This document shows positions 34,107 through 54,688 of a DNA stretch of 64,000 nucleotides, one piece after another (within the stretch, counting starts at the first letter, position 1; each line of letters starts with the position of its first letter). Made by a program: the position numbers and the translations under genes. The notes below the pieces were generated by a model. It saw only the letters and a list, made by a program, of their open reading frames with translations, did no database searches and was not told where the DNA came from. The DNA comes from Microbacterium testaceum StLB037 (GTDB taxonomy: Bacteria; Actinomycetota; Actinomycetes; Actinomycetales; Microbacteriaceae). The stretch covers positions 186,001-250,000 of the forward strand of contig NZ_FNJN01000005.1 in NCBI RefSeq assembly GCF_900104345.1, given 5' to 3'.

Positions 34107-34170
34107 GCGACGAGAACAGGCTGATCGAGCGAAAACAGCCTGTCGTCGTGGCATCCCCTGTTCTCGTCGC
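34107..34170. repeat. Palindromic element G (64 bp)
   Basis: A perfect 14-bp inverted repeat, GCGACGAGAACAGG at 34107-34120 and its complement at 34157-34170, with a second nested inverted repeat (ACAGGCTG at 34116-34123, CAGCCTGT at 34136-34143). It lies in the 379-bp divergent gap 33999-34377, which holds no gene. Confidence 0.75.
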
Positions 34171-50447: not shown

Positions 50448-51281
50448 GTGGACATCACCACCGTCACCTCGTACCGCGCCGCGCGGACGCGCTCCGACCT
50501 GGCGCTCGCGCCCGGCGAGGTCGTCATCGCCGGCGGCACCTGGATCATGAGCGAGCCGCAGCCCGGCACCACCGGCTTCGTCGACCTGATCACGCTCGGG
50601 TGGCCCGACCTCGAGATCACCGACGAGGGCCTGCGGATCGGCGCCACCTGCACGATCGCCCGCCTGCTCGCGTGGGTCGAGACCGAGGCTCCGTCCGCGT
50701 GGACCTCGCTCGCTCTCGCCCGCCCCTCGGCGGATGCCCTGCTCGCGTCGTTCAAGATCTGGAACACCGCCACCGTCGGCGGCAACGTCTGCCAGGCCTT
50801 CGCGGCCGGCGCGATGATCGCCCTACTGTCGACCCTCGATGCCACGGCCCTCGTGTGGACGCCCGACGGCGGCGAACGGCGCATCGCGGTCGCCGAGCTC
50901 GTCGTCGACAACGCCGCGACCTCCCTGGCGCCCGGCGAGGTCGTGCGCGCCCTCGACATTCCCGCGCGGGCCCTGGAGGCGCGGGTCGGGCTGCAGAAGA
51001 TCGCCCTGGCCGAACTCGGCCGCTCCGGCGCCGTGGTCACGGCCCGGGTCGACCCCGACGGCACCGCGGTGTTCGTCGTGACGGCCGCGGTGCGTCGGCC
51101 CCGCGTGCTGCGCTTTCCGCACGTGCCGGGGGCGGGAGAGCTGCGGGATGCCGTGGCCGCCGCCAGCGACTTCTACACGGACCCGCTCGGAAGCGCCGAC
51201 TGGCGTGTGGGTGTGAGCGTCGTGCTCGCAGAGCGCCTGCGGGCGCGCTTCGTGCGGGAAATGCAGGACGGCGCGGCGTGA
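50448..51281 (+). CDS. Molybdenum hydroxylase FAD subunit (XdhB/CoxM type)
   Basis: 277 residues. The FAD-binding part shows [20 protein letters not shown] and [14 protein letters not shown]; a CO-dehydrogenase-flavoprotein-like C-terminal domain follows. It passes electrons from the 2Fe-2S clusters of the next protein to NAD+ or another acceptor. The stop overlaps the next start (GTGA). Confidence 0.9.
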
Positions 51282-54157
51282 GGTTCGAGGTCAACGGAAC
51301 CGCCGTCGAGGCCGACCCGCGCCCCGGTCAGAGTGCGCGCACGCTGCTGCGCGAGGCGGGCCACGTCGAGGTGAAGAAGGGGTGCGACGCGGGCGACTGC
51401 GGCGCGTGCTCGGTGCTGCTCGACGGCACGCCGACGCACTCGTGCATCATCCCCGCGATGCGGCTCGAGGGCCGCGCGATCACAACCGCGGCCGGCCTTG
51501 CCCCGGGCGACGAGCTCCACCCCGTGCAGGAAGCCCTCGCGACCGGCTTCGGCTTCCAGTGCGGGTTCTGCACGCCCGGCATGAGCGTGACGGCCTCGAC
51601 CCTGACCCCGGACGACCTGGGCGACCTCGACCGGCGCATGAAGGGAAACCTCTGCCGGTGCACGGGGTACCGTCCGATCCGCGAGGCGATCCGGGCGTCG
51701 GTGCGGGGGCCCGTGCGTGAGACCGGTTCGGCAGCGCCGGCCGCGGCCCCCGCCGGCTGCGGCGGTGCCTGCGCGGGGCACGACACACCTCCTGCAGATC
51801 CGTCCCTCACGGCTGCCTCGACGCCCGCGCCCGCCGATCTGCAGGAGGTGTGCACGCCGACCGGCGCAGCGGCATCCGTCACCGGCCGCGTCGGCACCTC
51901 GGTCATCCCCGAGGCGGCCCGCCGCATCGTCCAGGGGCGCGAACCGTTCACCTTCGACGAACCCGTGCCCGGCGGCCCGCCGCTCATCCTGCGGGTCGTG
52001 ACGTCGCCGCACGCCCACGCCCGGGTGGTCTCGATCGACACGACGGCCGCGCGGGCAGTCCCGGGCGTCGTGGCCGTGTTCACCCACGACGACGTGCCCG
52101 ACCTGCGCTATTCGACCGGCCGCCACGAGCACCGCACCGACGACCCCGACGACACGCGCATGCTGGACGACGTCGTGCGTCACGTCGGTCAGCGGGTCGC
52201 CGCGGTCGTCGCCGAGACGGCCGAGGCGGCGGATGCCGGATGCCGTGCCGTGCAGGTCGAGTACGACGTGCTGCCCGCGGTGTTCGATCCCGAAGAGGCG
52301 CGCCGGCACGGAGCCCCGCTGCTGCACCCCGACCGCACGCCCGACGAACGCGTGATGGACGCCGGCCGCAACGTCGTGGCGGGCTTCCACGTCGGCCACG
52401 GCGGCGATATCGACGCGGCCCTCGCCGCGAGCCACACCACGGTGACGGGCGAGTGGCGCTCGTCGCGCGTGACCCACGCGGCGCTCGAGACGCACGGCGC
52501 CGTCGGCTGGATCGACGACGGCGGTCGCCTCGTGATCCGCTCGTCGACGCAGGTGCCCTTCCTCGTGCGAAACGAACTCGCGCACGTGTTCGACCTGGAG
52601 CGCGATCGCGTGCGCGTGTACGCGGCCCGCGTGGGCGGCGGCTTCGGCGGCAAGCAGGAGCTCTTCACCGAAGACCTCACCGCGCTCGCGGTGCTGCGCC
52701 TCGGTCGTCCCGTCGCCTACGAGTTCTCGCGCACCGACCAGTTCGTCCGGGCGTCCCTGCGGCATCCGATGCGCGTCCGCACGACACTGGGGGCGGATGC
52801 CGACGGCACCCTCACCGCGATGAAGCTCGACGTGTTGAGCGACACCGGCGCCTACGGCAACCACGCGATCGGCGTGCTGTTCCACTCGTGCGCCGAGTCG
52901 ACGACCCTCTACCGTGTGCCGACGAAGTGGATCGACGCCGAGGCGGTCTATACGAACAACCCGCCCTCTGGGGCGTTCCGCGGCTACGGGCTCGGGCAGG
53001 TGGTCTTCGCCGTCGAGTCGGCGATGGACGCCCTCGCTCAGGAACTCGACATCGACCCCTTCGACCTGCGCCGCATCAACGCCGTGCGCGAGGGCGATTC
53101 CCTGCACCCCGACAACGGCGAGGAGCCCCACGAGGAAGACCTGATCTGGGGCAGCTACGGCCTCGACCAGTGCCTCGACCTCGCGCAGGACGCGCTGCGG
53201 CGCGGCAACGGGGTGACGGCGCCCGAGGGCTGGGTGGTCGGCGAAGGGATGGCCGCGGCCATGATCGCGACCATGGCCCCGCGCGGACACATCGCCCACA
53301 CCAGCGCGACTCTGCGCCCCGACGGCACGTACCTGCTGCGCGTCGGCACCGCCGAGTTCGGCAACGGCACCGCGACCGTGCACCGCCAGATCGCGGCGAC
53401 GGTCCTCGACGCCACCCCCGACCGTCTCGAGCTGTGGGCCGCCGACACCGACGCGGTGCGCCACGACACCGGTGCGTTCGCCTCCGCGGGGACGGTCGTC
53501 GCCGGCAAGGCGCTGTACGGCGCCTGCCTCTCGCTGAAGCGCCGGATGATCGCCATCGCCGCCGAGCTGTCGGGGGCGGACGCCGCGGAGGCCGAGGTCA
53601 CGGCATCCGGAATCTCGTTCGCGGGCGAGACCGTGACGTGGGCGCGCATCGTCGAGGCCGGGGGCGCCGACGGCCTCACCGCCGACGGGGCGGAGTTCGG
53701 CGAGGTCCGCTCGCTCGCGTTCAACGTGCACGCGGTGCGCGTGGCCGTCGACCCCGAGACGGGGACGGTGAAGGTGCTGCAGTCGATCCAGTCGGCGGAT
53801 GCCGGAGTCGTGATCAACCCGGCGCAGTGCCGCGGCCAGATCGAGGGCGGCGCCGCGCAGGCGCTCGGCGGAGCGCTGTACGAAGAGGTGTACCTCGAGG
53901 ATGGCGTCGTGCAGAACCCGGTGTTCCGCACGTACCGCGTGCCGCAGTTCGCCGACGTGCCCGACACCGAGGTGTACTTCGCCGCGACCGACGACACCCT
54001 CGGCCCGTTCGGCGCCAAGTCGATGAGCGAGTCGCCGTACAACCCGGTGGGCGCGGCGATCGGCAACGCCGTCTCGCGCGCCCTCGGCTGCCGCGGGTAC
54101 GAGCTGCCGTTCTCGCGCGACCGCGTGTGGAGGCTCGCCGGCGGGGGTGCCGCGTAG
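51278..54157 (+). CDS. Xanthine-dehydrogenase-like protein: 2Fe-2S and molybdopterin domains fused
   Basis: 959 residues. Residues 1-145 carry both 2Fe-2S clusters (Cys36, 41, 44, 56; Cys95, 98, 126, 128). A 55-residue Ala/Pro/Thr linker, partly encoded by the palindromic element at 51784-51852, joins them to the molybdopterin-binding part (about 205-959), with [19 protein letters not shown] and the catalytic Glu region GAKSMSESP. In most bacteria these are separate XdhC/CoxS- and XdhA/CoxL-type subunits. Together with the FAD subunit, the maturation genes at 27712-29298 and the purine cluster, it is probably a purine hydroxylase; xanthine is the likely but unproven substrate. Confidence 0.88.
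51784..51852. repeat. Palindromic element C (69 bp) inside the hydroxylase gene
   Basis: A perfect 17-bp inverted repeat, CACACCTCCTGCAGATC at 51784-51800 and its complement at 51836-51852. It is in frame and encodes about residues 169-192, exactly in the linker between the iron-sulfur and molybdopterin domains. The arm shares CTCCTG with families A and B. Confidence 0.82.
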
Positions 54158-54596: not shown

Positions 54597-54688
54597 TCGT
54601 GGCCCCGGGGCCACGAAGCTCGCCCCGGGTCCACGTCCGACGCCCCACCTCCGACCGCGCCCGCGCGCACCGCGCCCCGGGGCCACGA
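54597..54688. repeat. Palindromic element F (92 bp)
   Basis: TCGTGGCCCCGGGGC (54597-54611) faces its exact complement (54674-54688). Each arm is itself part of a palindrome, and a third degenerate copy, GCCCCGGGTCCACG, lies near 54622. It is situated between convergent genes. Confidence 0.72.

Follow-up and report, generated by a model that had tools for sequence, protein, structure and literature searches.

A palindrome in the linker of a Microbacterium molybdenum hydroxylase is a stray copy of a dispersed repeat family associated with nuclease genes

A fused molybdenum hydroxylase gene of Microbacterium testaceum StLB037 carries a perfect palindrome within its reading frame, at the junction between the 2Fe-2S and the molybdopterin domains, which raises the question of where such an element comes from and whether it had a part in the fusion of the two. 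The gene lies in a stretch of 64,000 nt (contig NZ_FNJN01000005.1), hereafter the window, and the features concerned are as follows.

51278..54157, + strand: fused molybdenum hydroxylase (2Fe-2S plus molybdopterin) with the element in its linker; domain matches Fer2, Fer2_2, Ald_Xan_dh_C, MoCoBD_1 and MoCoBD_2; the GTG start at 51278 is inferred and overlaps the stop of the upstream ORF
51695..51934, + strand: variable linker between Fer2_2 and Ald_Xan_dh_C, host site of the element, from domain matches and the linkers of homologues
51784..51800, + strand: left arm, CACACCTCCTGCAGATC, from the inverted-repeat search (family consensus CACAACTCCTGCA.. from 63 copies)
51801..51835, no strand: interior of 35 nt, fixed in length and unconserved among unlinked copies, from copy comparison
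51836..51852, + strand: right arm, GATCTGCAGGAGGTGTG, perfect complement of the left arm, from the inverted-repeat search

The initial annotation had described a perfect 17-bp palindromic element lying in frame at the domain junction, and this description held in both respects. The element spans 69 bp (51784-51852), with 17-nt arms that are 100% complementary and 35 nt apart; the reading frame is uninterrupted across it, and it makes up codons 169-192, counted from the GTG at 51278, between Fer2_2 (residues 69-138 of the protein, P0001) and Ald_Xan_dh_C (residues 219-332). Among the 10 perfect inverted repeats in the window (arm of at least 12, loop of 3-70) it has the longest arms; an arm of 17 or more was reached in 1 of 60 first-order simulations of the window, and the RNA strand from 51774 to 51862 has a folding z of -3.94. 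Another perfect inverted repeat, of 15 bp and 92 bp overall, lies 3' of the hydroxylase gene (54597-54688).

As to the origin of the element, it had been proposed that its insertion joined two formerly separate subunits. We compared the best 80 of 234 confirmed hydroxylase loci, ranging from Microbacterium out to Gordonia, Pseudonocardia and Isoptericola. In all 80, a single stop-free frame leads from the LCRCTGY motif to FGGKQ in the molybdopterin domain, and 72 of them have variable linkers free of the element, an outcome that the initial annotation had itself named as refuting the proposal. That the repeat created the 2Fe-2S/molybdopterin fusion, an idea that its place at the domain junction had recommended, is thus ruled out for all practical purposes; what stands of the proposal is a repeat carried in frame in the linker. 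The remaining 154 weaker loci may include unfused forms, the scan ranking full matches first; such relatives would not change this conclusion on the age of the fusion.

The linker itself is variable, with 51-150 residues between LCRCTGY and the EPF/EPY motif in the 76 homologues that have both anchors. Other repeats were seen in it by eye: PEPVEG in L090, GTGAA runs in L088, NLGSTG-like repeats in L116-L119, L121, L124 and L125, and duplicated blocks in L110 and L112. The element was found in 8 of the 80 homologues in addition to the window and a relative, G058, at up to 4 mismatches per arm, a search that may overlook decayed copies; all ten copies are 69 bp long and, by eye, share one open frame. 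In a tree built from 81 of the 82 proteins (L112 left out), presence of the element requires 5 changes, all inside one clade. Because the homologues are fused and the changes are confined to that clade, the element entered, or was lost from, a pre-existing linker. The anchor-to-anchor span, counted by eye, is 34 codons in the window protein and in L051 and 11 in L113, the closest element-free homologue on the tree; this difference of 23 codons, or 69 nt, is only suggestive as a trace of insertion, the spans of L050 and L052 differing from that of L113 by other amounts and the DNA alignments giving no clean insertion junction at a site where the neighboring linker is too variable. Within the linker copies of L050-L052, compared with the window, 4 of 102 arm positions have changed and 20 of 105 interior positions (p = 0.0008, the three comparisons sharing branches), and six more distant comparisons likewise give fewer changes in the arms than in the interior. 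The hydroxylase linker looks like a general landing place for inserts, and the copy found there is probably without function for the enzyme; it has lasted because the linker in which it landed is variable and because its 69 bp amount to 23 codons in an open frame.

Beyond the hydroxylase, the palindrome belongs to a dispersed repeat family, found mainly between genes, of which it is a stray copy. Members are composed of two conserved inverted arms of 13-17 bp, CACAACTCCTGCA..TGCAGGAGTTGTG, and the arm is found repeatedly in the window's genome, paired at a distance of 52-53 bp. The strict pattern CTCCTGCA-N38..50-TGCAGGAG is matched in 12 of 59 genus genomes, with 12 matches in the window's genome and up to 22 per genome, and the reversed-pattern control gave one match in each of 4 of the 59. 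Nine named relatives have 0 to 25 strict matches, and the copy number can vary strongly between relatives (2, 10 and 25). A motif scan of 44 stretches, with a permitted length of 66-73 bp, returned 63 copies with their flanks, which are a sample in that the scan missed the known copies C2:101016 (left of the nuclease, see below) and C2:84736, among others. Their length is 69 bp in 45 and 70 bp in 18. Some stand in local arrays and have interiors in common; the interiors of unlinked copies of one genome are 0.39-0.41 identical, no more alike than shuffled sequence (0.39), so that they give no trace of the full 69 bp having been copied. According to a crude gene caller, 60 of the 63 lie between genes (27 convergent, 24 tandem and 9 divergent), whereas the 155 background gaps of at least 80 nt comprise 38 convergent, 71 tandem and 46 divergent ones. 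The three genic copies are two in the same hydroxylase gene (window and G058) and a doubtful one, in an ORF of L149 that by eye is probably a mis-called extension, which leaves the parallel drawn in the initial annotation with the palindromic elements of Rickettsia a weak one.

Such hairpins might be terminators or mRNA-stabilizing structures that are alike in sequence by chance, which would agree with the strong stem and with convergent gaps being commoner among the copies than in the background. We regard this as very improbable, since a fixed, random loop of 35-36 nt and lineage-specific arms are not expected of terminators, one copy lies inside an open reading frame, and the region 51000-52700 matches no Rfam family at gathering score (one miRNA-family match reached 23.9 bits for a cut-off of 90). 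The pattern of covariation also speaks against it. The arms show 62 double changes, a number reached in 0 of 1000 full shuffles but in 240 of 1000 within-genome shuffles, and the paired count within copies was reached by 481 of 1000 within-genome shuffles; there is therefore no sign of selection on hairpin pairing once the arm make-up of each genome is kept. The arm thus seems to follow the motif of its lineage rather than its partner, which fits recognition by a protein better than selection on the hairpin. Conserved arms, fixed spacing and a free interior together argue for a protein that touches both arms.

A candidate for this protein stands between copies of the repeat. In the window's genome (G000, gene at C2:101163-101966) and in G007, G034 and G035, homologous genes lie between two copies spaced by about 1 kb. 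They encode a protein of about 270 aa that combines an AbiEi-like N-terminal portion with a C-terminal nuclease of the EDxHD type (MTES_1575/DUF559). Among these four proteins, PF18741 (REase_MTES_1575) scores above cut-off in one and DUF559 (PF04480) in three, and the AbiEi_4 N-terminus is above cut-off in one, below it in two and absent in one. Across 30 nucleases, E173, D200, D212 and H217 (numbering of the first sequence) are invariant and E210 is nearly so, in line with an EDxHD-type core; this label is our own reading of the residues. A profile search of the PDB matched the endonuclease-like protein 3hrl (E 2.1e-6) and, weakly, the mobile intron protein 3r3p (E 0.024); 1qtr (E 0.57) was taken as chance, as were the two matches of a single-sequence search (E 0.79 and 0.88). 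NCBIfam gave nothing above cut-off for the four nucleases, and phage protein families gave nothing for the three of them that were searched; in a defence library, searched with the same three, P0002 had no match and P0003 and P0005 matched AbiEi models and, weakly, PDC-S37 and Hhe. Homologues of the nuclease at E 1e-20 occur in 56 of the 59 genus genomes, up to nine in each. The element is present in 6 of the 7 genomes with a close nuclease (at least 398 bits) versus 4 of the 52 others, a count that is partly circular, in that copies in the nuclease flanks are included, and from which G038 and G043 were left out, their only match having an odd span (63 versus 59-60 bp) and being probably due to chance. 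Copies without a close nuclease are found in G058, G016, G009 and G024, the last of which has no nuclease match at E 1e-20. A search of the open-access literature found no paper tying DUF559/MTES_1575 nucleases to palindromes, and such work may still exist.

The link between palindrome and nuclease extends well beyond these four genes. We tested 50 nuclease loci of the genus (30 returned by the search plus 20 chosen) for matching inverted repeats in both 450-bp flanks. Matching arms were present on both sides of 38 at 12/15 or better and of 34 at 13/15, 12 loci failing the test. Control positions taken at random in hydroxylase loci gave 1 of 150 at 12/15 and 0 of 150 at 13/15; these, like the 200 positions of the order-wide control given below, are mostly coding DNA, a weakness from which a control with swapped flanks is free. 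When flanks were swapped between the nucleases of one genome, 0 of 62 pairs matched at 12/15, versus 22 of 27 own pairs in the same genomes. Swapping over all loci gave 152 of 2450 at 12/15 and 72 of 2450 at 13/15, as expected if sister nucleases share arms. Over 39 loci, arm similarity tracks protein identity (Mantel r 0.383, 0 of 9999 permutations): arms agree among sister nucleases and differ among lineages, following the nuclease and not the host genome. In G011, the nuclease of L185 is bracketed by palindromes that have the arm core of the window family, CACAACTCCTGCA, and are 84-86 bp long; arm sequence and length can therefore vary independently. Taken together, the link between palindrome and nuclease is well supported.

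The site of the nuclease cassette of the window's genome was then compared in 11 relatives. A similar nuclease is found at the orthologous site in G060, G061 and G007, and a more diverged one in G064 (72% over 771 nt). The cassette is missing from G059, where 69 bp separate the flanks and, by eye, a single remnant arm is left, and from G062, where the left flank is partly gone as well; in G067 and G024 the nuclease is missing, with 122 and 109 bp between the flanks, whereas G063 (flanks at contig ends) and G034 (one flank matching beside its nuclease) were uninformative. By eye, other imperfect palindromes stand at the cassette-free sites of G067 (L241) and G024 (L243). The same site holds, in G058, a different nuclease with different arms, so that at one site a difference in the enzyme goes with a difference in the arms, which may reflect either exchange or in-place divergence.

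The same layout recurs with other repeats. The window itself contains a palindrome of a second family:

34107..34170, no strand: second palindrome, other family, arms GCGACGAGAACAGG / CCTGTTCTCGTCGC, probably between divergent genes (ORFs, by eye)

This family is nuclease-linked as well, having 32 strict matches in G058 (overlapping ones counted), including both sides of the nuclease L199. Besides the family of the hydroxylase element, two families have copies that flank a nuclease on both sides and copies elsewhere. A second nuclease of the window's genome, G000:C8:259989, has its own palindrome at both flanks, the only two strict matches of that genome, and this palindrome recurs five times in G044 (once adjoining a nuclease) and once in G007. 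The family CGAGAACAGG..CCTGTTCTCG is present in 15 of 59 genomes (control 0), flanks a nuclease of G058 on both sides and also adjoins nucleases in G007 and G033. Within the TCCTGCGGAGT family, copies of G044 (L216, L219 and others) and G007:C1:3345562 (L218) hold an inner palindrome like ACACGCCG..CGGCGTGT, which is absent in the two copies of the window's genome. Another family has 6 matches in 4 of 59 genomes, that of G016 with an odd span, its strict pattern missing the flank copies of L177 and L184, and for several nuclease lineages strict copies are scarce outside the flanks. Across the order, a homologue at E 1e-30 is present in at least 57 of 149 genomes and at least 23 of 62 genera, a lower bound, since no more than 17 candidates in each genome were scored in the initial round. 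The search returned 30 loci, two of which had been counted already, and the remaining 28 were tested. Outside the genus, 10 of 24 loci pass at 13/15 and 14 fail, and in all ten the left and right palindromes have the same length (59 to 105 bp); inside the genus, 1 of 4 further loci passes and 3 fail; among 200 control positions, none passed at 13/15 and 3 passed at 12/15.

What, then, do the palindromes do? One answer is that they are operators bound by the AbiEi-like part of the protein, which would thereby shut down its own gene along with a small regulon, in which case the dispersed copies would be selected rather than mobile. AbiEi-type winged-helix proteins, as in the AbiE type IV toxin-antitoxin system, do autoregulate through inverted repeats (PMC7319586, in excerpt), and conserved arms, fixed spacing, a free interior and a site on both flanks of the nuclease gene would all suit operators. 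Against this stand the preference for convergent gaps with only 9 of 63 copies in divergent ones, the local arrays with common interiors, the widely differing copy numbers among relatives and the copy inside a coding linker, and we hold regulation of this kind to be unlikely. A non-autonomous transposon (MITE) mobilized by a conventional transposase, next to nuclease genes that simply put up with such insertions, would equally be a short inverted-repeat element of patchy distribution; the arms, however, vary with the nuclease and occur on either side of it, the interior is unconserved and inspection of the flanks by eye showed no target-site duplication, so that we consider a MITE improbable. 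The search for transposases was confined to Y1 (PF01797), which is lacking in 58 of the 59 genus genomes, the one carrier not being the window's genome.

Our preferred reading, to which we give a probability of roughly 60%, is that of a REPIN/RAYT-like system with an EDxHD-type nuclease in place of the Y1 transposase, the element in the hydroxylase being one of its dispersed copies. That the same layout occurs with other repeats in related bacteria suggests that nuclease and repeat form one system, and we infer that the nuclease binds the repeat and spreads it. Two nuclease molecules may attach to the pair of arms by way of their winged-helix domains, in the manner of AbiEi on inverted repeats; this would account for a constant spacing and an unconstrained interior. 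The nuclease could cut or nick bound or extruded palindromes, and repair after the cut might copy the palindrome to new places, as is thought for RAYT with REPINs. Counting against this reading are the dissimilar interiors of unlinked copies, pairing within copies that does not exceed the within-genome shuffle, the lack of a target-site duplication by eye, the copies in genomes without a close nuclease, the loci that fail the paired-arm test and the lineages with few strict copies outside their flanks. The broader proposition is that of a widespread actinobacterial class of systems, selfish or self-marking, in which a long-spaced palindrome co-evolves by lineage with a nuclease of the AbiEi-type winged-helix/EDxHD kind that recognizes two inverted half-sites at a measured distance and spreads them, a counterpart of REPIN-RAYT without an HUH enzyme; for this the arguments seem to us evenly balanced. 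Pairs of cognate nucleases and palindromes, together with a DNA-binding module of a known type, provide material for testing the spread of palindromes and the measurement of half-site spacing. The findings also suggest a role for nucleases named only DUF559 or MTES_1575 in Pfam, and the hydroxylase linker preserves a record of a nuclease-linked palindrome inside a protein.

Among known systems, the palindromic elements of Rickettsia are inserted into many unrelated genes. They resemble the present case in that a palindromic element is carried in frame in a protein, but here a single host gene was seen, and the family is mostly intergenic and tied to a nuclease. EDxHD or Vsr-like homing endonucleases share the nuclease core by profile (3r3p, a weak match) and a cassette that is present or absent at a conserved site (absent in G059, G067 and G024); the palindromes described here are, on the other hand, kept intact on both sides. 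With AbiE, the nuclease appears to share a winged-helix part, to judge from the AbiEi_4 matches given above (over the cut-off in one of four proteins), and it shares paired inverted repeats at a spacing characteristic of the protein. According to excerpts of PMC7319586, AbiEi binds two 23-bp inverted repeats 3 bp apart and the spacing for Rv2827c is 13 bp, a wider spacing for which its authors suggest that the larger C-terminal domain may account; in our case, the C-terminal part is a nuclease, and the sites are on both sides of the gene as well as dispersed. The closest resemblance in layout is to REPIN-RAYT, in which, as excerpts of Bertels and Rainey (2011, PMC3116915) have it, inverted ends of about 16 bp enclose a spacer, the repeats are mostly extragenic, form tandem clusters and occur in the DNA flanking each enzyme gene, and compensatory changes are common. 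The present element likewise has two conserved inverted ends and a spacer and is multi-copy, mostly extragenic and clustered, and its cognate palindromes flank the nuclease gene and follow its lineage. It differs in that the flanked gene encodes an EDxHD-type nuclease with an AbiEi-like N-terminus (PF18741/PF04480) instead of a Y1 transposase, in that copies number tens and not hundreds, with a random interior of strict length, and in that covariation, though above the full shuffle, does not exceed the within-genome shuffle. Because a Y1 transposase occurs in 1 of 59 genomes, the system is like REPIN-RAYT in layout but not a member of it. Enzyme-linked dispersed palindromes have been described for RAYT, a Y1 enzyme; here the pattern recurs with an unrelated nuclease and many lineage-specific palindromes.
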